From Verrucomicrobiaceae bacterium (GTDB lineage Bacteria; Verrucomicrobiota; Verrucomicrobiia; Verrucomicrobiales; Akkermansiaceae): 64,000 nucleotides of DNA. Positions 17,731-31,466 of the stretch are shown here, one piece after another (position 1 is the first letter of the stretch; every line of letters starts with the position of its first letter). The stretch lies in NCBI GenBank assembly GCA_027487435.1, contig JAIYDP010000489.1, positions 1 to 64,000 of the forward strand, in the 5' to 3' direction. The notes below the pieces were generated by a model. It did not search any database and was not told the origin of the DNA. It worked only from the letters and a program-made list of their open reading frames with translations. The position numbers were made by a program, and so were the translations under genes.

Positions 17731-17988
17731 GTGAGTCAAAAAACCTTGGCGACAGAGAGAATGACGGCTGAGGGAAAAAAGATCGGCGTAAAGGCGTTAC
17801 ACGAGGCCATCCCAAGAATACACGAGGCCATACCAAGAGTGCACGAGGCCATACCAAGAGTGCACGAGGCCATTCCAAGGATGCACAAGGCCATCCCAAG
17901 AATACACAAGGCTATGTCAAAAACGCACAAGGCTATTTCAAGAACTCACAAGGCTATGTCAAAAACGCACGAGGCTATCTTAAGCTAA
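17731..17988 (+). CDS. ORF made of 7-residue tandem repeats (85 aa), coding status uncertain
   Basis: A GTG at 17731 preceded by GGAG opens an 85-residue frame. The first 23 residues are basic, then come nine copies of a heptad HEAIPRI/HKAMSKT, with the stop in the ninth copy. The frame survives because the DNA unit is 21 bp. Changes between units are mostly conservative (V/I/M, K/E, P-R to S-K), which mildly favours translation. The opposite strand is also open through the array, as expected for a 21-bp repeat, so coding is not proven. It is divergent from dgt. No function is proposed. Confidence 0.35.
   Translation: MSQKTLATERMTAEGKKIGVKALHEAIPRIHEAIPRVHEAIPRVHEAIPRMHKAIPRIHKAMSKTHKAISRTHKAMSKTHEAILS
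17800..17988. repeat. 21-bp tandem array, nine units
   Basis: Nine head-to-tail units begin CACRAGGCYAT. Units 2 and 3 are identical (CACGAGGCCATACCAAGAGT plus G), units 6 and 8 are identical, and later units drift from GAGGCC to AAGGCT. There are no spacers, so this is a minisatellite and not a CRISPR. Confidence 0.95.
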
Positions 17989-19191: not shown

Positions 19192-20892
19192 ATGAAATAC
19201 ACTACCACAACCATACTCGCCAGTCTCGCTCTGGCTTCCTCCCTGCACGCTCAGGGTTTCAAAACTGCGGAGGCTTCCTACCTCCTCGCCACTCCGTCAT
19301 CGGACTTCACGTTCGAGCCAATCGTCACCGTAGGTGATCGCGTGCCGCTCACTCCTAACTCGGCTCCTCCTGCTGCCACGGATTTCGCTTTCTGCGGTAT
19401 CCCTGATGCCATGGGGATTTACAAAGATCGCGCGTCCAACCAGAACATCCTCTTTGTTGCTCACGAGATTCCAAGTAATGTTAACTCACGTCCGTTTGCT
19501 AGCCTTCCTCGCTACAAAGGTGCTTGGGTTTCCCGTTTCGTTATGAGCAACAACGGCGGTATCGTAAACGGCTCCATCGCCCACAAAGAGTTGTTCCTTG
19601 AAAACACCTTCCAAGCCAACACGTCCCCGATTGAAGGAGACACTAACGGTTTCACCCGTTTCTGCTCTGGCTCCTTCGCTGGTCCTGAGCACGGCATGGA
19701 TCGTCCACTTTTCTTCACCAACGAGGAGTCCAGCAGTGGTAACTACGATTCCAATGGTTCTCAGACCGTTGTCATCGCCGATGGCAAAATGTACACCGTG
19801 CCAGACCTTGGCCGTGTGGCTCGTGAAACGACGATGGTGCAGCCTCGCCGCGATGCTTTGACCGTAGTGGTCAGCACCGAAGACGAAGGAACTCCTTCCT
19901 ACATCTACATGTATGTTGGTACCAAACAACGCCGCTCTAACAGCGTGCTTGACAAAAACGGACTGACGAATGGCAAAATCTACGTTCTCGCAGGCCGTGA
20001 CGCGCAACACAACGAAGGAACCTTCACTTCTGGCAGTCTGCCTGTGAAGTGGGTGGAAATCCCAAGTGCCGCTTCGCTCAACTCCGCAGGAATGGCTAGC
20101 GCTGCAGATGCCGCAGGTGGCTTCGGCTTCGTGCGCGTGGAAGATTCTGAGTTTGATCCAACGAATCCTACCCGCAGCATGTTCATCGCAACTACGGGTG
20201 GTTCTTCATCAAACCGCTTGGGTCGTCTTTATGAAATCTCCATGAATCCTACCTCACCAACGTCTAATGGTACTCTCAACGTGATTTATAACGCTGATAC
20301 CATCATTTATCCTTCGGGTAATTATAGCGGTGCCGCTACTGGCAGACTTTCGGGTCCAACAGCAACGGGCAACTTTGGAACATACAATCAGGGTGTCATC
20401 GGCACCACGGATTATCCTGTCAGCATCGACAACATCGCGGTTAGCAAAGATTTCATTATCTGCTGCGAAGACCGTAACTCTCCTGCTGATGCGGTCTTCT
20501 CCGCATTCAACCGCAACGGTGGCACATGGACACTGGATCGTAAAAACAACTACGCAGCCAAGCTCCAGTGCACGTTCAATTACGCCTACACCCAAGGCCG
20601 CGACCAAGGTGTAGCTCCCACCTCCAGTACATCTAATTCCCGAGGTCTTTGGGAGACATCTGGCGTTATCGACTCAAGCGCCATCTTCGGACCAGGCACT
20701 TTCGTGATCAACGTTCAAGCTCACCTCCAGGCTGTTCCCGTGGTTCCTGCAACAACTCCTCCTTCTACCACCACGACCCCTTCGATGCGTTCCAACTGCC
20801 CAGATGGTCTGGGTGGTGTGCTTTCGAAGTCTGCCGCACGAGGCAACTTCGCCGAAGATGGTCAAGTGTTGATCATGCGTCTCAAGCCATAA
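19192..20892 (+). CDS. Exported PhoX/DUF839-like phosphatase
   Basis: A signal peptide (cleavage near LHA-QG) leads into a PhoX-type propeller. Signs are FTRFCSGSFAGPEHG, FFTNEESSSGNYD, VVVSTEDEGTPSYIYMYVG, GKIYVLAG and DNIAVSKDFIICCEDRN. The last sections correspond to the conserved EDG.PSY.Y and DN...P.G..L..CED motifs of PhoX proteins. It probably releases phosphate from organic esters outside the cytoplasm using Ca/Fe. Unlike many PhoX enzymes no Tat motif is seen; the leader looks Sec-type. A Thr/Pro linker lies near residue 520. A hairpin terminator follows. Confidence 0.8.
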   Translation: MKYTTTTILASLALASSLHAQGFKTAEASYLLATPSSDFTFEPIVTVGDRVPLTPNSAPPAATDFAFCGIPDAMGIYKDRASNQNILFVAHEIPSNVNSRPFASLPRYKGAWVSRFVMSNNGGIVNGSIAHKELFLENTFQANTSPIEGDTNGFTRFCSGSFAGPEHGMDRPLFFTNEESSSGNYDSNGSQTVVIADGKMYTVPDLGRVARETTMVQPRRDALTVVVSTEDEGTPSYIYMYVGTKQRRSNSVLDKNGLTNGKIYVLAGRDAQHNEGTFTSGSLPVKWVEIPSAASLNSAGMASAADAAGGFGFVRVEDSEFDPTNPTRSMFIATTGGSSSNRLGRLYEISMNPTSPTSNGTLNVIYNADTIIYPSGNYSGAATGRLSGPTATGNFGTYNQGVIGTTDYPVSIDNIAVSKDFIICCEDRNSPADAVFSAFNRNGGTWTLDRKNNYAAKLQCTFNYAYTQGRDQGVAPTSSTSNSRGLWETSGVIDSSAIFGPGTFVINVQAHLQAVPVVPATTPPSTTTTPSMRSNCPDGLGGVLSKSAARGNFAEDGQVLIMRLKP

Positions 20893-21002: not shown

Positions 21003-22757
21003 ATGAACGCCGGTCGTTCCATTTCCCTAGTAACTCTCTTTCTTTGGCTTGAAGCCATCGGCATAGCCGCTGTGGCGGTCATTCTCCGTGATTCCGATTT
21101 GGTTCCGGCTGCCGCTCTCGTTTTTCTTTTGGCCTCACTTCATGCAGGCCGCCCATTATTAGGGCTGCTGTTTAGTGCCGCTGCCATGGGTACGTTTTTC
21201 AGCGGATTGATCAGCACTGCCTTTGCGGAAAATGTTCCTGTCGCTTACGCCATCGTCTCGCTCGTTTTGGGGATCGTCTGTGCGTTTCTTGGAATTCTCA
21301 GCAACCTCAAGTCCGCTCAGGACATTCCCGCACGCAAATGCTTGGTGCAACTCGCCGTTTTTCTCCACTTTCCCATCGCCGGACTTTACATGGCGGATCC
21401 CTACACGGAGTTCTTCATCAATCGGATCGTCGCTTTTCTTCTTACCGGCATCTTCGCGCTCGTGGCGGCGGATACTCTCTCGAAATTCATTTCCCGCCTC
21501 TACACGCCTAAGCGCCACTGGCACACGCTGCCATCATACGGCGCGTTCTTTTTCTATCGCTATCTTGGCCCGAAATTCGGCACTCTTTTCCCGCCTGCCA
21601 CTGCGAATCAGGAGTCGCTCAAACTCGCCGAAATGTGGATGTGGCCCAGCGTGCGGAAATCGCTGCCCGCGCTGATCGCCACCGGCCTAATTCTCACTTG
21701 GCTCGGTACGTCCGTCCACGAAATCGATTCAGCGCAGCGCGGCGTTCGCCAAACTCTCGGCTCCTGGGAAAAAGCTGACCTCGCTCCTGGACTCCACCTT
21801 TCCGCTCCATGGCCCTTCGGCCAAATTCAAAAAGTGGAAAGCGAGCGCATCCAGCACATCGTGCTCGGCTTCCGCGCTGATCCCGGCCAACCGATCCTCT
21901 GGGAGCGCGCGCACTACGAGGACGAAGAAATTTCTCTCGTCGGCGGTGGCGATGACTATCTCGCCATTTCCATCCCCATTTTTTACCGCATTTCTCGTCC
22001 CTCTGATTTTCTCAGAGCCGCCGCTGAACCGGAAAGTTTGCTGCATAGTTTTGCTGGGCGCATTGTCCAACGCCTCACGGCCTCGCTCCCCGCAGCGGAA
22101 ATCATGACCACCGCCCGCGAGCCTCTGCGCGCGGAAATCCAGTCACTTCTCCAGCAAGACCTCGATGCCGTACAATCCGGCCTTCGCATCGAAGCGGTTC
22201 ACCTGCGCGACATCCATCCGCCGGTCAATGTCGCACCCTTTTACCAAGACGTCGTCGCCGCCATCGAGGACAAGGAAACGTCCATCCACCTCGGCGAGGA
22301 TTATCGAAACGACAACTTGATTCGCTACGCTGGCAATGCCAAAGCGACGCTCTCCATCGCCGAGTCCACCCGCGATAACCGCTTGCTCGCTGCCCAAGGG
22401 GAATCGGGACGTTTCCGCACCCGCGCACAGGCTCGCAAAATCAATTCCTACCTCCATGATCTCCGCGAAGGCTTCGCCGTCTTCGATGCCACACTAGGCG
22501 GTGCGAAAAAAGCGATCTTTGACGACCGCATCAAGGGCGAAATGCCGATGCATCTTGATTTACGGAAAGTCCTCAATCCCGATCTCGTAACCACCACGCC
22601 GCCCGTCCCACAGACTCTTATCCCGCGCCCAAGCCGCTCGCGTGAAGCCTTTGACCTCGAAATTGAGGGATTCCTCCGCACCGACCGCGGCGAGATTCCT
22701 GCCGCCGACTTCAATCCTGTCGACCCTGACAACCTCCTCAAATCCCAATCAAAATGA
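21003..22757 (+). CDS. SPFH/band-7 protein with multi-pass N-terminal membrane domain (HflK-like)
   Basis: Residues 1 to about 235 form six or so membrane segments (SLVTLFLWLEAIGIAAVAV, PAAALVFLLASLHAG and others). From about 240 an SPFH domain begins (VHEIDSAQRGVRQTLGSWEK, APGLHLSAPWPFGQIQKVES), continuing with a band-7 core and an HflK-like alpha-helical tail (IRYAGNAKATLSIAESTRDN). HflK proteins normally have a single anchor, so the fused membrane domain is unusual. It overlaps the next SPFH gene in an ATGA arrangement. It is the first gene of the GC-rich SPFH/P-type ATPase cluster. Confidence 0.85.
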   Translation: MNAGRSISLVTLFLWLEAIGIAAVAVILRDSDLVPAAALVFLLASLHAGRPLLGLLFSAAAMGTFFSGLISTAFAENVPVAYAIVSLVLGIVCAFLGILSNLKSAQDIPARKCLVQLAVFLHFPIAGLYMADPYTEFFINRIVAFLLTGIFALVAADTLSKFISRLYTPKRHWHTLPSYGAFFFYRYLGPKFGTLFPPATANQESLKLAEMWMWPSVRKSLPALIATGLILTWLGTSVHEIDSAQRGVRQTLGSWEKADLAPGLHLSAPWPFGQIQKVESERIQHIVLGFRADPGQPILWERAHYEDEEISLVGGGDDYLAISIPIFYRISRPSDFLRAAAEPESLLHSFAGRIVQRLTASLPAAEIMTTAREPLRAEIQSLLQQDLDAVQSGLRIEAVHLRDIHPPVNVAPFYQDVVAAIEDKETSIHLGEDYRNDNLIRYAGNAKATLSIAESTRDNRLLAAQGESGRFRTRAQARKINSYLHDLREGFAVFDATLGGAKKAIFDDRIKGEMPMHLDLRKVLNPDLVTTTPPVPQTLIPRPSRSREAFDLEIEGFLRTDRGEIPAADFNPVDPDNLLKSQSK

Positions 22758-23761
22758 GCGAAACTACCGAAGCACCCTGTAACAAACGCATCACTGTCGT
22801 TCGCACCTTGCTCATTCTTGGCGTCGTTCTCGCCGTTGTCGTTTCCTCCTGTGGCTTCATCCTCAGTGAGACGGAAAAAGCGATCGTCGTCCGTTTTGGC
22901 AAGCCCGTCCGCACGCTTACCGAGTCAGGATTTTACCCGCGTTTTCCCGCACCCATCGAGCGAGTCATCCGCATTGACCGTCGCCTTCAGCATGCCGAGA
23001 TCCGCCTGAGCGAAACTCTGACCAAAGACCAGCGCAACGTTATCATTCCGCTCTTTTACACATGGCGCGTCGAAGAGCCGCTCACCTTCCACAATTCCGT
23101 CGGTAGCGTCGAACGCGCCGAGGAAAAGCTCAACGCGCTCATTACCTCCGCCCGCAACTCGGTCATCGGTCGCCACCCATTTGCCGAACTCATCGCCCCC
23201 GTCGGCTCGCCTACCAACTTACCGACCATCGAGAAAGACATCCTCGCCCTCGCCGCCCCTGATGCTCTTGTCCAGCTTGGGGTAAATCTCCTCTCCACCG
23301 GGATCACCCGCATCCAACTTCCCGAGGCCAACACCGAATCCGTCTTCCGCCGCATGCGCGCCGAGCGCAAGCGGGAAGCCACCAAGTTCCGCGCTGAGGG
23401 CAACGCCCAATCTGCCACCATGAAAGCAGAAACCGACCGCGAAGCCACCCGCCTGCTAGCTGATGCCAAACGCCAAGCCGAGGAAATTCGCGGTAATGCC
23501 GAAGCCGAAGCCGCCGCTCTCTACGCCGCCGCCCACGGCAGTGATCCCGAATTCTACCGTTTCCTCCGCGAGCTGCAATCGCTCCGCACCATCGTCGATA
23601 AAAACACCACACTCGTGCTCGACACCAGCATCGCCCCGCTGCATTGGCTAAAAAACTCCGAAAATCCAAATGCGAAACCAACTCCCATCCTCCCTACCCC
23701 CAAAGCAACACCGGGAAATCTCACACAAAACCCGCTCCTGAACGATACCCCTTCGGAGTAG
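22754..23761 (+). CDS. SPFH/band-7 protein (HflC-like)
   Basis: One N-terminal membrane anchor (about 17-37) precedes SETEKAIVVRFGKPVRTLTE and the typical HflC region FPAPIERVIRIDRRLQ. The helical segment has EANTESVFRRMRAERKREAT and ADAKRQAEEIRGNAEAEAA, the expected HflC signature. A Pro/Thr/Asn tail of about 35 residues ends it. Real HflC with HflK encloses the FtsH protease. The pairing here with a P-type ATPase suggests a different client. The start is inside the stop of the preceding gene. Confidence 0.88.
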   Translation: MSETTEAPCNKRITVVRTLLILGVVLAVVVSSCGFILSETEKAIVVRFGKPVRTLTESGFYPRFPAPIERVIRIDRRLQHAEIRLSETLTKDQRNVIIPLFYTWRVEEPLTFHNSVGSVERAEEKLNALITSARNSVIGRHPFAELIAPVGSPTNLPTIEKDILALAAPDALVQLGVNLLSTGITRIQLPEANTESVFRRMRAERKREATKFRAEGNAQSATMKAETDREATRLLADAKRQAEEIRGNAEAEAAALYAAAHGSDPEFYRFLRELQSLRTIVDKNTTLVLDTSIAPLHWLKNSENPNAKPTPILPTPKATPGNLTQNPLLNDTPSE

Positions 23762-23794
23762 CCCTTTGAAATCTCAAATCTCAAATTTCAAATC

Positions 23795-24223
23795 CTATCC
23801 CCCCGGCATCACCACCTCATAGCCTAACTCCCGCGCCCCATCCGCCTGCCGAACATCATGAGTCATCAATCGCCTCACACCCAACTCCGCCATCGCCGCC
23901 AGATGCAGCCGGTCGAGAGATCGGCAATGGACCTGTGTCACCGCGTGTTGCTCCATCGCCAAGGAAAAAACCCGACTCACCAACGTGCGCTTGAGGAAAG
24001 GCTCATTCGCCAAAGTCTCCGCAAGTTGCCCACGCGCTCGGGTGTATCGAGCCGTCCCCATACGTCCACCAAGATTAGCACTGCGGAGTTGAACATACGC
24101 TTCGAGTTCGGTGAGCGGGGTGATGATGATCGAAGCCTCTTGCGCTATCGCGAGGATCACCGCATTGGATTGCCCATCGAGGATAAACAGCTTAATCAAA
24201 CTACTGGTATCAATGTAGATCAA
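23795..24223 (-). CDS. PIN-domain toxin (VapC-like)
   Basis: The 142-residue protein starts MIYIDTSSLIKLF with the first PIN-domain Asp. TELEAYVQ follows, then SLDRLHLAAMAELG with a conserved Asp, and LMTHDVRQADGARELGYEV at the end. These are the acidic residues that bind metal in PIN ribonucleases. Its start overlaps the stop of the antitoxin gene (24220-24223), so the two form a toxin-antitoxin pair. The pair runs against the surrounding SPFH genes. Confidence 0.9.
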   Translation of the reverse strand: MIYIDTSSLIKLFILDGQSNAVILAIAQEASIIITPLTELEAYVQLRSANLGGRMGTARYTRARGQLAETLANEPFLKRTLVSRVFSLAMEQHAVTQVHCRSLDRLHLAAMAELGVRRLMTHDVRQADGARELGYEVVMPGG

Positions 24224-24564
24224 AATGTTGTTCTAGATTCGGCAATTTTGAGAGCCGCTAATTTCTCTTCCTCTTCGTCAAGCAAAGCAATAGCGGCGAG
24301 ATCTTCATCGGAAATCAATTTCCGTTCTTCCCGATCTTCCATCAAGGGTGTGAGGGTATCAAATGTTTCGTCGCCCCACATATCTTCTAACCATTTCCGA
24401 TGTTCCACAGGGTCAAAGCGTTTCCTCGGAGCCTGCTCTTCCACGGGCAAAAGTCGCGCCACGGGCTTGCCATCTCGCGTAATGACAATTTCACCCTCGG
24501 CTGCCAGGCTCCGCTCCGCCTCCGGCCATTTCTGCCGAACATCTCGCACTGTCATTGTTTTCAT
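24220..24564 (-). CDS. Phd/YefM-type antitoxin
   Basis: The N-terminus MKTMTVRDVRQKWPEAERSL is followed by GEIVITRDGKPVARLLPVEE, the classic Phd/YefM fold that binds operator DNA. The C-terminal acidic region (MEDREERKLISDEDLAAIAL) should wrap the toxin. ATG 24564 is preferred over 24591. It precedes the PIN toxin with a 4-base overlap and probably autoregulates the pair from the 52-bp gap upstream of the third SPFH gene. Confidence 0.88.
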   Translation of the reverse strand: MKTMTVRDVRQKWPEAERSLAAEGEIVITRDGKPVARLLPVEEQAPRKRFDPVEHRKWLEDMWGDETFDTLTPLMEDREERKLISDEDLAAIALLDEEEEKLAALKIAESRTTF

Positions 24565-24616
24565 AAAACTTGTGTAACATGTTTCACCCATCTGTCAACA
24601 TCATAGATTTCGCCTC

Positions 24617-25711
24617 ATGAAACCTCGCTCCATCCGCCAGCAAGGCCGCGCGGTCGAAGCCTTGCTCATCCTGCTGAAGCACCTCACCGCGCACGCTCGT
24701 TGGCTATTCGCTGCCTTGCTCTTATTTTACGCATGTTCCGGCATTCGCACCGTCGCCTCGAACGAGCAAGCCTTGCTCCTCCGTTTCGGAAAAATCCAAC
24801 CACAAATCCACGGCCCGGGTCTTCTCATCGGCATGCCCGATCCGTTCGACCGACTTATCCGCTTCGAAACTGGACGGGAGTTCAGCATCGCATTAAACGG
24901 CTGGGCCACTGGCGGTGCCAAAATCGGCGACCCTGATGCCCCTCCCGAGTTCACCGATGAGGAACTCAGCCTCATGCTGACACGCGATGCCGATGGCAAC
25001 ATGATCGAGATTGACAAACCTCGTCCCACCGGCACCACGCTCGATCCGGTGATAGACGGCTACACCCTCACTGCAGACTTTAACATCATTCAAGGCCGCT
25101 TCGTCATGCGTTACCGCATCGTTGATCCTTTCCGTTTCGCCACCGCCGGCGATGACATCGAGGCACTGCTCTCCCGCCTCGCTTACCGTGCCCTCTCCCG
25201 CCAAATCGGCACGCGAAATATCGACACCTCACTCACCGCCGAGCGCCGCGAACTTGCCGCTCTTGCGGAGGAATCCACCCGAGCCCTTGCTAGAGAGCTG
25301 AATCTCGGCGTCGAAATCACCGCCATCGATATCATCGAACTCGCGCCGCCCAGCCAGGTCGTCGCCGCCTTCGAGGACGTTTCCAACGCCCGCCAGTTCG
25401 CCAAAACAATCTACGAAAACTCTCGCCAATACCACGACGAGACCCTCGAAAAGCACCGTGGCGAGGCCGCCTCCATCGTCTATCGCGCCGAGGGCTACGC
25501 CTCAAACATGGTCGGCGCCGCTAAGGGCGAAGCCGCCGCTTTCAGCCAAATGCTCGCCGAGCACCGCCGCAGTCCAGGCCTCGTTTCTCAGCGCCTGCTC
25601 AGCGAGACCCTGAGCACCGTGCTTGGCGGCGTTCAATCGCGAACCCTTCTTCCTGCCGATGCAGCACGCCCCTCGCTGATGATCGAGCCCGCTCCGGAAT
25701 TCTCCCGCTGA
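24617..25711 (+). CDS. Third SPFH/band-7 protein (HflK-like)
   Basis: A basic N-terminus is followed by a membrane anchor (about 28-46). The SPFH domain begins RTVASNEQALLLRFGKIQPQ and continues GPGLLIGMPDPFDRLIRFET. An insert of about 60 residues (PDAPPEFTDEELSLMLTRDA) interrupts the usual domain. The helical tail has VSNARQFAKTIYENSRQYHD and EGYASNMVGAAKGEAAAFS. It differs from the first HflK-like gene, so the cluster carries three distinct SPFH paralogues. The toxin-antitoxin pair separates it from the HflC-like gene. The P-type ATPase follows 9 bp later. Confidence 0.85.
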   Translation: MKPRSIRQQGRAVEALLILLKHLTAHARWLFAALLLFYACSGIRTVASNEQALLLRFGKIQPQIHGPGLLIGMPDPFDRLIRFETGREFSIALNGWATGGAKIGDPDAPPEFTDEELSLMLTRDADGNMIEIDKPRPTGTTLDPVIDGYTLTADFNIIQGRFVMRYRIVDPFRFATAGDDIEALLSRLAYRALSRQIGTRNIDTSLTAERRELAALAEESTRALARELNLGVEITAIDIIELAPPSQVVAAFEDVSNARQFAKTIYENSRQYHDETLEKHRGEAASIVYRAEGYASNMVGAAKGEAAAFSQMLAEHRRSPGLVSQRLLSETLSTVLGGVQSRTLLPADAARPSLMIEPAPEFSR

Positions 25712-25720
25712 AATTTTCCC

Positions 25721-27649
25721 ATGACCACCGACATCCCACTCGATTCTGAAACACGCCGCCGCCTCGGACTACTGTTCGTCGCCACCGCGCTCATGCTCGC
25801 CTCCGTGCTCAGCGGCTGGCTGCGTCCCGAACAAGAACTCGTGCGCCAATCCCTCGCCCTCATCGCCGCGCTCATCGTCGCCATTCCCATCGTTTCCGGC
25901 CTCATCAATGCCATCCGCGCCACCGGCTTCGCCGCCACTCAGTTTTACATGGATCAATACGTGGTCCTCGCCCTCGCTGCCTGTCTCGCCACCGGAAAAT
26001 ATCTCACTGGAGCCATCGTTGCCATCGTCCTGCTCTTCGGCCAAATGCTCGAAGAACGCACCACCGTCGGCGTGGAAATGGCTCTCGCCAAACTCCGCCA
26101 ACTCTCGAAAATCCGCGCCCGCCGCAAATCAGGCGATGCCCATACCGAAGTCGAAGCCACCGAGCTGCGCCCCGGCGATGAAATCCGCATCCTCCCCGGC
26201 GAAGCCATCCCGGCCGATGCCACCATCCTCACAGGCCACGCCCTCATCGACCAATCGACCATCACCGGCGAGTCCGTTCCCGTCGAGGTCGGACCCGGCT
26301 CCGACATCTTCGCTGGCACCAACAACCTCAACGGCTCCATCGACGCCCGCGTCACCGGCACCGGTCAAGACACCGTTATGGGCCGCGTGCAATCGATCAT
26401 CGAGGAAGCCAAGGAATCGGAAGCGCCCATCATCTCCCTCGCCGAGGACTACGCCCGCTACTACACCCCGCTCATCCTACTCATCGCCGCCTCGGTGTTC
26501 TTCTTCACCCAGGAAATCGAGCGCGCCATCGCCGTGCTCGTCGTCGCCATCCCCTGCGCCTTCGTGCTCGCCTCACCCTCCGCCATGGTCTCTGCCATTG
26601 CCGCCGCCTCGCGCATGGGATTGCTGGTGAAATCCGTGCGACACCTCGAATCCGCCCGCCTCACCGACACCGTGGTCTTCGATAAAACCGGTACCCTTAC
26701 CGAAGGGAAACTCGAACTCGAAGAAACCGCCGTCCACTCCGATCATTACGACGCCGACAGCATCCTGCGCCTCGCCGCCGCCATCGAGAGCCAATCCAAC
26801 CACCCCATCGCCCGCGCCATTTCTCAGATCGTTCCAGAAAACGAACGCCCCGCCGTCACCGCCCTCACCGAGCACCACGGTCTTGGACTGGAAGGCATCA
26901 TCGAAGGCAAAACCATCCTCATCGGTCGCCCGAGTTTCCTCGAAAAATCCGGCATCACCCTTGCCCTCGATCCCGCCATCCACACCCGCCACTCCCTCGT
27001 GCTCATCGCCGTCGATGGCACCCACGCCGCCACTTTCCTGCTCGCCGACCGCATCCGCCCCGAGGCTAAGGAAACGCTGGACCGCCTGCGTTCCCTCGGC
27101 ATCACCGACTTCGTCATGCTCACCGGCGACCGCACCGAAGTCGCCGAGACCATCGCCGCCCGCGTCGGCATCACGGATTTCAAAGCCAACTGCCTGCCTC
27201 AAGACAAAGTCGATCACATCCGCGCCCTCAAAGCCACTGGGAAAAAAGTCATGGTCGTCGGCGATGGCCTCAACGACGCCCCCGCCCTCGCCGAAGGCGA
27301 CCTCGGCGTCGCCATGGGCGCGCTCGGTAACGACGTCACCGTCCACACCTCCGACGTCGCCCTGATGTCCGGCGACCTCCGCCGCCTCGCCGACATGCTA
27401 CTGCTCTCCTCCAAGACCGTCAACATCATCAACCAGAACCTGCTCTGCGGCTTTGCCTTCATCATCATCGCCATCGCGCTTTCCTCGCTCGGCTTCGTCA
27501 ACCCCATCGCCGCCGCCTTTTTCCACGAATTCAGCGCCTTCTTCGTCATCTTCAACAGCGCCCGCCTCCTCCGCTTCGATGGCATCGAGGAAACACGGAG
27601 CGCGGACTTTAGTCCGCCCGAGCCCACAGAAAGCCCAGCCAGCGCATGA
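25721..27649 (+). CDS. P1B-type cation ATPase with atypical metal-site motif
   Basis: The ATPase motifs are complete: TGES (182-185), phosphorylated Asp321 in DKTGT, the P1B-specific HP (361-362) and GDGLNDAP (514-521). The membrane CPx motif reads IPC (277-279, AVLVVAIPCAFVLASP), lacking the first Cys or Ser. The last membrane segments carry HEFSAFFVIFNSARLL (from 602), which matches the HEGGT-type site of the P1B-4 (Co/Zn/Fe) subgroup only partly. There is no N-terminal heavy-metal-binding domain. The substrate is therefore unclear. Its C-terminal tail is partly encoded by a REP-like palindrome (27602-27617). It overlaps the next gene by ATGA. Confidence 0.9.
   Translation: MTTDIPLDSETRRRLGLLFVATALMLASVLSGWLRPEQELVRQSLALIAALIVAIPIVSGLINAIRATGFAATQFYMDQYVVLALAACLATGKYLTGAIVAIVLLFGQMLEERTTVGVEMALAKLRQLSKIRARRKSGDAHTEVEATELRPGDEIRILPGEAIPADATILTGHALIDQSTITGESVPVEVGPGSDIFAGTNNLNGSIDARVTGTGQDTVMGRVQSIIEEAKESEAPIISLAEDYARYYTPLILLIAASVFFFTQEIERAIAVLVVAIPCAFVLASPSAMVSAIAAASRMGLLVKSVRHLESARLTDTVVFDKTGTLTEGKLELEETAVHSDHYDADSILRLAAAIESQSNHPIARAISQIVPENERPAVTALTEHHGLGLEGIIEGKTILIGRPSFLEKSGITLALDPAIHTRHSLVLIAVDGTHAATFLLADRIRPEAKETLDRLRSLGITDFVMLTGDRTEVAETIAARVGITDFKANCLPQDKVDHIRALKATGKKVMVVGDGLNDAPALAEGDLGVAMGALGNDVTVHTSDVALMSGDLRRLADMLLLSSKTVNIINQNLLCGFAFIIIAIALSSLGFVNPIAAAFFHEFSAFFVIFNSARLLRFDGIEETRSADFSPPEPTESPASA
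27602..27617. repeat. REP-like palindrome inside the ATPase 3' end
   Basis: GCGGACT-TT-AGTCCGC is a perfect 7-base stem with a 2-base loop, lying in codons for the tail RSADFSPP. I recall this palindrome as a dispersed repeat in verrucomicrobial genomes, but could not check that here. Confidence 0.5.
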
Positions 27650-28251
27650 ACCGCACGCTCATCATCACACTGCTGCTCTGCGCCGTGGCCGCGATTTTCC
27701 TGCGGCAGACAGATCAGCCTGACCCGTCCAATCAACCAGATCAGACGGATCATAAAGATAGAACAGCAAAAAAAAGCACCCGCAGCAGCCGCGAAAATTC
27801 CCCTCACGCAAACGACCCTCATCCACGACCGCTCCACGCCATCACGCCGGAGAGCCTCGGCATTTCATCCACGCAGGCTCAGGTTCACCCCGCCGATGTC
27901 ATTGCTCGCGCCATTGCCGAGGAAAATCTCCCCCTCATCCACTCCGCAACCCTCGCCTGGTTTCAGCAAGATCCCCAAGCGGCTCGCGATTGGCTCGCCC
28001 AGCAAGAATCGCTCGATGCACTGCAACCCGCCATCAGCTACATCGCCGCAAGCATCGGCGAGAAAGGCGACATCCCCACCGCCATGGAATGGCTCAAACT
28101 CCTCACCGACGACACCCTCCGCGAATCCACCCTCTTCGACATCCAAGCCCTCGCCCTTCGCGCCCGTCGCATCACCCCCGAGCAAATCATCACCGATGGC
28201 CTTTCTCCCGAACGCATCGAAGAACTCCGCAGCGGAGCCGCAGGCGACTAA
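27646..28251 (+). CDS. Membrane-anchored small protein of the SPFH/ATPase cluster
   Basis: It has an N-terminal anchor (about 4-19), then an Asp/Gln/Thr-rich linker (QTDQPDPSNQPDQTDHKD) and a helical domain with QDPQAARDWLAQQESLDALQ and TAMEWLKLLTDDTLRE. I recognise no family. Its start lies in the ATPase stop (ATGA), so it is made with the ATPase. It could be an accessory or adaptor subunit, but nothing in the sequence shows this directly. Confidence 0.6.
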   Translation: MNRTLIITLLLCAVAAIFLRQTDQPDPSNQPDQTDHKDRTAKKSTRSSRENSPHANDPHPRPLHAITPESLGISSTQAQVHPADVIARAIAEENLPLIHSATLAWFQQDPQAARDWLAQQESLDALQPAISYIAASIGEKGDIPTAMEWLKLLTDDTLRESTLFDIQALALRARRITPEQIITDGLSPERIEELRSGAAGD

Positions 28252-28309
28252 AAGAAAAGCAGGCGACTGAAAGAAACGCAAAAGATTCACCCCAAACCAA
28301 CCAAGCAAC

Positions 28310-29083
28310 ATGAATCCTATTACCGCAACCTCCACCGACACCACCCGCCGCCAGTGGGTGAAACAATTCCTTCTCGGCACCGCCTCCGTGCTTTGCGGGT
28401 CAGCAAGCACCACCTCACTGCTCGCCCAAGTAGGTTCAACCGGCCCAGGCCCTGGCGTATTGCGCCTTAAGCTCGCCAACTTACCCGCCCTAGCGACCAC
28501 AGGCGGCTCCATCCAGCTGCGATTCATCGACTACATCGCCCCCATGACCATCAACCGCGTTAGCGCCACCCGCTTCGTCACGCTCGACTCCGTTTGCACC
28601 CACGCTGGCTGCACCGTAGCACGTTTCATCGTCAATTCCAACCTCATGCGCTGCCCCTGCCATGGCTCGCGCTACGACATCGAAGGTCGAGTCTTTCGTG
28701 ATGCGAATGGCGAATCCACCGAACCTGCGTCCGACGACCTTGGTCGCTACGTTACCACATTTGACCCCGCCACCGGCATCATCGCCATCACCATCCCCAC
28801 GCTTGCGCTGCATATCGAATCCATCACCGTGCAAAACCTCGGCAGTGGCGATGCCAAGCGCATTAAGCTCGTCTTCCCCGCTAGCTACGGTGCCACCTAC
28901 GAAATCTATTCCCAGCCCGATCTCATCACCAGCCCCGCCATCATCCCCTTTTCCCTCCATTCCAACGGCACGGCGCAGATGACCTCCTACAATTCAGAAA
29001 CCGAAGGAAACCTCACAGTTTATATCGACTCCACCTCCCCCCGCAATTTCTACAGCGTAGGAATCAAGCTGAGTCCGCCTTGA
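28310..29083 (+). CDS. Rieske [2Fe-2S] protein with Tat leader and C-terminal beta module
   Basis: The N-terminus has a twin-arginine signal (TTRRQWVKQFLLGTASVL). The cluster is bound by CTHAGC (residues 96-101) and CPCHGS (115-120), both complete. The Rieske domain ends near residue 165. About 90 more residues form a beta-rich segment (KLVFPASYGATYEIYSQPD to FYSVG) resembling the C-terminal module found on many secreted verrucomicrobial proteins. It should be exported folded and may act in electron transfer. It lies 58 bp after the SPFH/ATPase cluster, on the same strand. A 39-bp copy of its 3' end recurs at 30951-30989. Confidence 0.88.
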   Translation: MNPITATSTDTTRRQWVKQFLLGTASVLCGSASTTSLLAQVGSTGPGPGVLRLKLANLPALATTGGSIQLRFIDYIAPMTINRVSATRFVTLDSVCTHAGCTVARFIVNSNLMRCPCHGSRYDIEGRVFRDANGESTEPASDDLGRYVTTFDPATGIIAITIPTLALHIESITVQNLGSGDAKRIKLVFPASYGATYEIYSQPDLITSPAIIPFSLHSNGTAQMTSYNSETEGNLTVYIDSTSPRNFYSVGIKLSPP

Positions 29084-31159: not shown

Positions 31160-31466
31160 CGATTCCTGGCAGCGGAAATCGGTGCGAAAATATTTGTGGG
31201 GGCTTTTCCGGCTGCGGGAATCGAGGTCTAAATTTCTAGGAAGCGATTTCTGGCGGCGGGAATCGGGTTCTAAATTTCTAGGAGGCGATTCCTGGCGACG
31301 GGAATTGAGGTCTAAATTTCTAGGAGGCGATTCTTGGCGACGGAAATTGGGTTCTAAATATCTAGGAGGCGATTTCTGACGGCGGAAATCGGGGTCTAAA
31401 TTTCTAGGGGACGATTCCTGGCGGCGGAAATGGACGGCTAGATTTCTAGGAGGCGATTTTCTGGAG
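31160..31466. repeat. 42-bp tandem array, seven units plus a partial one
   Basis: Units start at 31160, 31202, 31244, 31286, 31328, 31370, 31412 and, partial, 31454. The period is exactly 42. The common text is CGATTCCTGGCGGCGGGAAT followed by a variable stretch and CTAAATTTCTAGGAGG. Within units CGATTYC and GRAATYG can pair around the GGCGRC loop, with mostly compensating or wobble changes. The period is twice that of the 17800 array. Confidence 0.92.

Follow-up and report, generated by a model that had tools for sequence, protein, structure and literature searches.

A conserved gene module of three SPFH proteins and a P1B-type ATPase in Verrucomicrobiota and on plasmids, with a possible role in metal uptake

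The stretch analysed here, called the window, comprises 64,000 nt of contig JAIYDP010000489.1 from a Verrucomicrobiaceae bacterium. Four open reading frames lie within positions 21003-27649 of its plus strand in the order SPFH-A, SPFH-B, SPFH-C and a P1B-type ATPase, and these four genes form the module with which this report is concerned. Coordinates are those of the window and refer to the plus strand unless stated otherwise (Table 1). A preliminary description, made from the sequence alone, had placed three SPFH genes, a P1B ATPase and a Rieske protein at this locus, and this was confirmed by the open frames and their domain matches. The SPFH genes had been said to surround the ATPase gene; instead, all three lie upstream of it.

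Table 1. Features of the window, with the four genes of the module and the ATPase motifs first
Feature	Position	Strand	Description
SPFH-A	21003..22757	+	584 aa; HflK-like with N-terminal multi-helix membrane domain; Band_7 38.3 bits
SPFH-B	22754..23761	+	335 aa; HflC-like; 4-base overlap with SPFH-A; Band_7 89.5 bits
SPFH-C	24617..25711	+	364 aa; HflK-like; Band_7 56.1 bits
P1B-type ATPase	25721..27649	+	642 aa; E1-E2_ATPase match; TIGR01525 516 bits (cut-off 346.25)
IPC motif, TM6	26549..26557	+	Residues 277-279; from alignment of 105 cassette ATPases
HEFSA motif, TM8	27524..27538	+	Residues 602-606
201-aa protein	27646..28251	+	4-base overlap with ATPase stop (27646/27649); accessory of nearest loci
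Rieske [2Fe-2S] protein	28310..29083	+	PF00355 35.1 bits (cut-off 20.3); loosely linked neighbour
PhoX-like protein	19192..20892	+	PF05787 45.2 bits; 5' of SPFH-A; outside module
PIN-domain (VapC-like) protein	23795..24223	-	PF01850 30.1 bits; inside operon, outside module
Phd/YefM-type antitoxin partner	24220..24591	-	TIGR01552 22.1 bits (cut-off 20.8); outside module

All three SPFH proteins exceeded the Pfam cut-off of 23.6 for Band_7. SPFH-B also scored 175.4 bits against TIGR01932 (hflC), over the cut-off of 134.4. Against TIGR01933 (hflK), SPFH-A and SPFH-C scored 91.7 and 136.2 bits, under the cut-off of 159.4, and the locus did not classify as an HflK-HflC system. An AlphaFold model of SPFH-A, with a mean predicted local distance difference test score (pLDDT) of 70.6 and a predicted template modelling score (pTM) of 0.50, contained six predicted helices (residues 3-27, 34-46, 51-66, 79-103, 108-128 and 133-167) ahead of the usual SPFH membrane helix (213-235), followed by the SPFH domain and a long coil (412-480); the six-helix region is predicted with moderate confidence. 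The model agrees with the fused multi-pass membrane domain previously noted in one of the SPFH proteins. Its best matches among solved structures were the HflK/C entries 7vhq and 9cz2. Zinc transporters of the CDF family (YiiP, ZnT) appeared under the SPFH matches in the Foldseek list, with E values of 0.1-0.4. A CDF fold is not claimed for the membrane domain, because profile-profile comparison with seven CDF rows gave a probability of 0.1, inside the range of 0.1-1.3 obtained with four control sets.

The window ATPase carried the signatures DKTGT, TGES, SNHP and GDGLNDAPAL. Eight membrane helices were present in its model (mean pLDDT, 78.4), at residues 9-34, 39-68, 78-90, 94-127, 236-263, 266-298, 554-589 and 595-627, with the helix at 266-298 broken at P278, and the nearest solved folds were CopA (4bbj) and ZntA (4umw). 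As described previously, IPC was found in transmembrane helix 6 (TM6) and HEFSA in TM8, and the protein has neither an N-terminal metal-binding domain nor a His-rich tail.

The distribution of this gene set (the cassette) was examined in related genomes. Among 60 genomes of the family, a single close ATPase relative was found, in G026 (50% identity, 614 bits; next best, 316), and this genome also encodes SPFH-A, at about 2.4 kb from the ATPase gene. Relatives at E <= 1e-110 were detected in 145 of 387 genomes of the phylum (Verrucomicrobiota in GTDB terms), and 93 of 384 genomes of the class encoded ATPase relatives. One hundred ATPase loci, 80 from the list of the phylum search and 20 from the class search, were hand-picked and inspected. 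The first 80 consisted of 69 loci with A-B-C-ATPase on one strand, 4 with ATPase-A-B-C, 4 cut by contig ends and 3 without an SPFH neighbour (L226, L231 and L239); the trio was present in 15 of the 20 class-search loci and absent from the other 5 (L283 and the low-scoring L286 to L289). All three SPFH genes therefore adjoined the ATPase gene in 88 of 96 evaluable loci. The preliminary description had proposed a search of relatives for this synteny and had named a lack of co-occurrence as evidence against its proposal; no such lack was seen.

A second set of loci was anchored on SPFH-A and consisted of the best 80 of 465 GTDB stretches encoding a relative, which were mostly Victivallis, Victivallales or Lentisphaeria records. 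The cultured species Victivallis vadensis carries the cassette (L117). Seven were cut by contig ends, and A-B-C-ATPase was present in 71 of the remaining 73. The two anchored sets of 80 overlap and represent 141 distinct loci by ATPase sequence. In the two exceptions, the next gene encoded a protein kinase (L183) or a helicase (L188). At L183 (9974-16810), and again at L314, the trio is directly followed by a gene for a 922-aa protein with a Ser/Thr kinase domain, which replaces the ATPase. For control purposes, 28 loci that encode other P1B ATPases of the family genomes were inspected, and their flanks of about 1.5 kb contained no SPFH gene. Given its recurrence relative to these control loci, the A-B-C-ATPase arrangement exceeds chance. 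The four genes are a conserved module, and the synteny is strong and old.

Co-occurrence was also counted without regard to position. At the thresholds used, 136 of the 387 phylum genomes had both SPFH-A and the ATPase, 9 had the ATPase alone, 10 had SPFH-A alone and 232 had neither; a Fisher test on these counts ignores relatedness and is not to be taken as a probability. Seven of the nine ATPase-only genomes were inspected (five of the window's clade, together with G063 and G122), and all seven have the trio (L098 to L103, L216 and L242), with an SPFH-A that scores too low for the threshold applied, the profile having been derived for the most part from Lentisphaeria. A reading of two lists placed SPFH-A and the ATPase close together on one contig in 118 of the 136 genomes, and G100 was additionally linked. 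Eleven genomes were listed as unlinked, one of which (G189) is merely cut by contig ends, and G362 was unplaced.

The cassette was not confined to chromosomes. Ten plasmid records, seven from Rhizobium and one each from Paraburkholderia sprentiae, Burkholderia ubonensis and Klebsiella aerogenes, encode an ATPase closely related to that of the Klebsiella cassette (E <= 1e-105), and the identical ten carry SPFH-A. Two of the ten were predicted to be conjugative. In the four plasmid loci that were read (Rhizobium tumorigenes, P. sprentiae, B. ubonensis and K. aerogenes), genes for an HflK-type, an HflC-type and an SPFH protein and for the ATPase followed each other in the same order, and the ATPases of these four proteobacterial cassettes carried CPC/HN versus IPC/HE in the window. 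A DNA search with the Klebsiella SPFH trio at "distant" sensitivity detected no copies in E. coli. A plasmid of Aquibium oceanicum (L202, 5026-14557) carries HflK-HflC-HflK genes followed by genes for a peptidyl-prolyl isomerase, a 925-aa CPC/D pump with a long N-terminal extension, PCu(A)C and SCO; this cluster was treated as a separate arrangement and is a possible copper-linked parallel. A pattern search of viral contigs gave no SPFH-A relative, and a phage origin was rejected. A defence system was likewise set aside, as PADLOC returned no match for six proteins.

Phylogenetic trees were constructed for the four genes. In a tree of 118 ATPases, 85 cassette-type rows, including the four plasmid rows and three unlinked ones, lay on one side of a branch (support, 99), apart from CPC/D, CPC/M, SPC/HE and TPC pumps, and 13 SPC/HE-type rows formed a group of their own (99). 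After the addition of 20 loci, including fringe ATPases without SPFH genes, the reference rows needed two changes on the ATPase tree, and hence the ATPase family has no sharp border. A single common clade of cassette ATPases, which had held in the 118-row tree, was not recovered cleanly in this enlarged set. In a tree of the SPFH domains of 30 cassettes and 28 other proteins, the SPFH-A of the window and the other 29 formed one clade, with a Shimodaira-Hasegawa-like approximate likelihood ratio test (SH-aLRT) value of 94; the 30 SPFH-B proteins formed one clade (93) apart from canonical HflC; and the 30 SPFH-C proteins grouped together (99) with one long-branched outsider among them. Each of the three groups was separate from canonical HflK/HflC. 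The A, B and C groups each spanned both phyla, their main subgroups were repeated from tree to tree and agreed with the ATPase tree, and the trees of all four genes united chromosomal and plasmid cassettes. Pairwise distances of the four genes correlated at 0.88-0.95 (128 loci), with those of SPFH-A tracking the ATPase best (r = 0.947 versus 0.898 and 0.882). Overall, these comparisons suggest that the four genes have been inherited largely as a set.

The HflC score of SPFH-B raised the question of whether the trio is a general scaffold or protein-quality module, possibly acting with an FtsH encoded elsewhere and sharing only regulation with the ATPase. The earlier statement that no FtsH is encoded holds for the cassette and fails for the genome, in which a single FtsH gene is present on another contig. 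The whole trio also stands apart from the ATPase in G140, G250 and G358, to which the three unlinked loci belong; this is consistent with an independent function. Against this stands the separation of A, B and C from canonical HflK/HflC and their association with this ATPase across phyla, including plasmids. Canonical HflK/HflC pairs were located at separate loci in the family genomes. Furthermore, in one genus in which SPFH-A lies elsewhere (four genomes read), B and C were kept together with the ATPase. A general scaffold is considered improbable. In comparison with the HflK-HflC-FtsH system of E. coli, the window module is similar in having an SPFH-B over the hflC cut-off and an SPFH-A model closest to HflK/C entries, and it differs in having three SPFH genes rather than two, an additional membrane domain in SPFH-A and a P-type ATPase as the partner gene.

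The TM6 motif varied among 105 cassette-type ATPases, with CPC in 70, x-P-C (x being I, L, M or V) in 19, V-P-A in 11 and C-P-x in 5. In a tree of 113 rows with the motif columns masked, the 19 xPC rows formed one clade (99), as did the VPA rows (99). A Glu followed the TM8 His in 18 of 18 readable xPC rows versus 0 of 85 other readable cassette rows. Because xPC and Glu mark a single clade of 19 loci, the IPC/HEFSA combination is assigned to one branch that lost a Cys and acquired a Glu; with only one branch, no statistics apply to this change. The combination proved to be specific to this clade without being general to cassette ATPases. The P1B-4 subgroup has SPC and HEGGT-type motifs. The window ATPase shares with P1B-4 pumps the Glu after the TM8 His and the single Cys in TM6, and in the SPC/HE pumps of the family genomes these two residues occupied the same alignment columns. 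The xPC rows differ from P1B-4 in having I/L/M/V-P-C instead of SPC, and cassette ATPases lie in a separate clade; the window ATPase, with IPC and a position away from the SPC/HE pumps, was not assigned to that subgroup. As the first tree separates cassette ATPases from SPC/HE rows, the likeness looks convergent. Judged by its residues, an xPC plus HE site should favour Zn2+, Co2+ or Fe2+ over Cu+.

The genes surrounding the cassette were then compared within the window's clade. All 19 loci of the clade have the order A-B-C-ATPase, and metal-uptake genes adjoin the cassette in 7. A ZnuA gene lies 3' of the ATPase gene on the same strand in L273, L274, L275 and L276, directly after it except in L275 (one small gene between), with an ABC-3 permease gene behind ZnuA; identification by eye applies to ZnuA in L275 and to the ATP-binding genes that separate ZnuA from ABC-3 in L274 to L276. 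A CbiM gene overlaps and follows the ATPase gene in L277, and in L280 SPFH-A overlaps at its start with a gene for an ABC-3 permease. The cassette of L102 has a CobW/COG0523 gene 1.5 kb upstream of it and is followed by MerC, ABC, FtsX and DUF3299 genes, a set that resembles the zinc-regulated zrg operon of Vibrio (PMC9817125). Of 18 genomes, 5 (from three families) have an ABC-3 gene no more than 4 kb from the cassette, compared to an expectation of 0.068, the ABC-3 family having been picked only after the first cases were seen. A count of at least five His residues in the N-tail before the first helix was obtained for 37 of the 105 ATPases, including those of the four loci with a 3' ZnuA gene (7 to 17 His).

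Similar neighbours were observed at other loci: znuABC and COG0523 genes near the P. sprentiae cassette, znuABC near L226, ZnuA/ABC-3-like genes near L216, a ZnuA-like gene near L208 and a COG0523-like gene beside L283. The pattern GTTAT-N4-ATAAC was matched with one mismatch 5' of the B. ubonensis and K. aerogenes cassettes and with two mismatches 5' of znuA in P. sprentiae, these matches being reported without a background comparison.

ZnuA-family proteins can also bind Mn, and hence the presence of ZnuA does not prove that the metal is zinc. A shift of substrate to Co2+, Mn2+, Fe2+ or a non-metal ion, in either the window's clade or the VPA clade, is a possibility that we regard as somewhat doubtful. 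It would fit with the formation of one clade each by the 19 xPC+HE rows and the 11 VPA rows, with the cobalt/nickel uptake gene CbiM after the L277 ATPase gene, with the lack of His-rich tails among VPA rows (0 of 11) and with the window's lack of both a tail and an uptake neighbour. The four xPC+HE loci joined to ZnuA/ABC-3 genes and endowed with His-rich tails argue in the other direction.

The nearest described system is, by gene order only, the hmtA cluster of Pseudomonas aeruginosa (PA2434-PA2439), in which HmtA (PA2435), described as a Zn/Cu-importing P-type ATPase, is encoded together with HflK- and HflC-family proteins (PMC4542158). The common features are a P-type ATPase accompanied by HflK (PA2439), HflC (PA2438) and HflC-family (PA2437) genes in a zinc-responsive cluster, with the gene order taken from papers only (PMC4542158, PMC11761036); the window differs in that no Zur box and no His tail were found. 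The same sources report that transcripts of PA2434, PA2435 and PA2437 to PA2439 increase in a znuA mutant (PMC4542158) and that proteins of the cluster increase under zinc depletion, not all of them significantly (PMC11761036), and Zur shifts the PA2439 promoter in vitro (PMC8531726).

The best reading of these results is that the module encodes an uptake pump for a divalent metal, probably zinc, that is held in an oligomer of its own three SPFH proteins; we give this a probability of roughly 0.55. Gene order, co-inheritance, the motif change and the metal-uptake neighbours in part of the clade are its observed basis, and from these we infer a physical SPFH-ATPase complex, the substrate and the direction of transport. 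The direction and the physical contact are the weakest steps. The proposal of the preliminary description that SPFH proteins act as a scaffold for a metal pump was borne out as far as conserved synteny is concerned and is the best-supported reading, with the association of the proteins themselves being presumed. For the window itself, a role in zinc uptake would follow from the clade to which it belongs.

In such an uptake system, the three SPFH proteins would assemble in the inner membrane into a hetero-oligomeric ring or dome, like HflK and HflC, and this dome would enclose or tether the ATPase instead of FtsH. SPFH-A, which has a membrane domain of its own, would be the likely contact to the pump, and the distance correlation is a weak hint in this direction. 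The substrate of the pump may be a divalent transition metal, with Zn2+ as the most likely one, and its role would most likely be in metal acquisition, as proposed for HmtA; zinc or a similar metal would then be taken up under shortage. A parallel exists in erythrocytes, where an oligomer of stomatin encapsulates aquaporin-1 and UT-B (PMC12407830). Both cases would involve an SPFH oligomer that encapsulates a membrane transporter; the stomatin dome differs in being eukaryotic, in consisting of stomatin rather than three paralogues, in holding passive channels instead of an ATP-driven pump and in having no operon.

Several observations weigh against zinc uptake by a caged or tethered pump. Eight of the 96 evaluable ATPase loci had no SPFH neighbour, and in three of these the trio sits elsewhere in the genome; such unlinked cases weigh against strict linkage, not against co-occurrence. 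Eleven cassette ATPases, forming one clade (L107, L114, L205, L215, L224, L235, L241, L247, L249, L252 and L253), carry VPA and thus have no Cys in TM6, and they have kept the SPFH trio. The window has no adjacent metal-uptake gene in addition to the missing tail, and no Zur-like box was detected upstream of its cassette at up to two mismatches (12 loci scanned), with a pattern that may not be that of this phylum. Three ABC-3 genes lie elsewhere in its genome, and since all of the 60 family genomes have ABC-3 genes, the cassette is not required as a substitute for them. Downstream of the cassette, 91 of the 141 distinct loci carry on the same strand a gene for an ABC ATP-binding protein belonging to a single similarity cluster (median distance over the cluster, 19 bp); an ABC-2-like permease is encoded in 67 of 141 (Pfam match just below the cut-off for that of L204, the one tested) and a membrane protein of about 543 aa in 69 of 141. 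Examples of this extension are L163 (10491-11669 onwards) and L204 (1708-5942). These extended loci are dominated by Lentisphaeria-type genomes, in which the module either works with additional partners or fulfils a different purpose. With respect to HmtA, one paper found that hmtA mRNA is low and not repressed by zinc (PMC8531726), and a review states that import by HmtA needs confirmation and that hmtA is the exception among Zur targets (PMC10393844).

The doubt about import bears on an alternative that we consider unlikely, in which the ATPase is an ordinary exporter of zinc or a related metal, perhaps loading periplasmic or outer-membrane enzymes, and the SPFH trio stabilizes the pump or protects the membrane. 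To our knowledge, the P1B pumps with firm biochemistry are exporters, and the solved folds nearest to the window ATPase, CopA and ZntA, would agree with this direction, as would the unconfirmed status of HmtA import (PMC10393844). Genes for the periplasmic copper chaperone PCu(A)C adjoin two plasmid clusters, and genes that may act in efflux occur near two loci of the clade: ArsP_1-type permease genes upstream in L274 and, identified by eye, a gene of the CDF-like efflux family 3.2 kb downstream in L276. On the other side, operons with ZnuA/ABC-3, CbiM and COG0523/Zrg-like genes point to a shortage of metal rather than an excess, efflux genes not having been searched systematically, and the genes of the hmtA cluster rise when zinc is short (PMC4542158, PMC11761036). 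Metal uptake was hence preferred to export.

A stronger version of the uptake reading, which must be regarded as speculative and on balance doubtful, is that of a caged P-type pump. A dedicated dome of three paralogues would close over the ATPase on its periplasmic face and create a private metal chamber, and the six-helix domain of SPFH-A would plug into the pump as an accessory subunit where FtsH otherwise sits. The chamber could concentrate periplasmic metal delivered by ZnuA-like suppliers and so permit inward transport.

The remaining genes of the locus were less widely conserved. A VapBC-like PIN/Phd toxin-antitoxin pair on the minus strand (23795-24591) splits SPFH-B from SPFH-C within the operon; against PF02604, the antitoxin scored 29.6 bits, just below the cut-off of 29.8. 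Because of this pair, the B-C gap of the window (855 bp) was the largest of 143 measured, some loci having been measured twice; the next largest were 518 and 347 bp, the median was 13 bp and none of the other 142 could accommodate such a pair. The small protein described as overlapping the ATPase proved to be the 201-aa protein, for which no Pfam or NCBIfam match was obtained; homologues are encoded 3' of the ATPase in L271, L097, L272 and L099 and, weakly, in L098. The PhoX-like gene occupies the same position in L097 and L272. The N terminus of the Rieske protein appeared twin-arginine-like by eye. In the flanks of 161 loci, relatives of its gene were found near the cassette only in the four closest loci (the window, L271, L097 and L272), on the opposite strand in L097 and L272, and the suggested link to Fe-S or redox chemistry was accordingly rejected as a general feature of the module. 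Tandem-repeat arrays are present in the window at 17798-17979 (units of 21, 42 and 63 bp) and 31205-31464 (units of 42 and 126 bp).

Judged from listings and passages, the open literature searched mentions HmtA near HflC/HflK-family genes and contains no treatment of the SPFH trio and ATPase as a conserved module. Another description concerns SPFH genes of P. aeruginosa. The PaFlo5-PaFlo6-PaFlo7 operon of strain PA14 was described as three SPFH genes in one operon that occurs in a limited number of species belonging to different classes and was perhaps horizontally transferred (PMC13086221). This operon is probably the PA2437-PA2439 locus. The main text of that paper contains neither a word beginning with "ATPase" nor HmtA, and hence a pump partner is not discussed there. 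The present results widen a zinc-responsive gene cluster of Pseudomonas, on which little has been written, to a conserved module of four genes with plasmid copies, and the window is located in a branch with a changed metal site.

This four-gene set is spread over many genomes of Verrucomicrobiota and plasmids of Rhizobium, Burkholderiaceae and Klebsiella. The window's clade represents a natural experiment on metal selectivity, as the changes in TM6 and TM8 mark the same branch and the scaffold genes were kept. The claim that HmtA is a P-type metal importer continues to be debated. Should the trio and the pump work as a single machine, this debate and the question of what most bacterial SPFH proteins hold would become approachable with four genes, and a caged P-type pump, if true, would represent a new type of metal importer.

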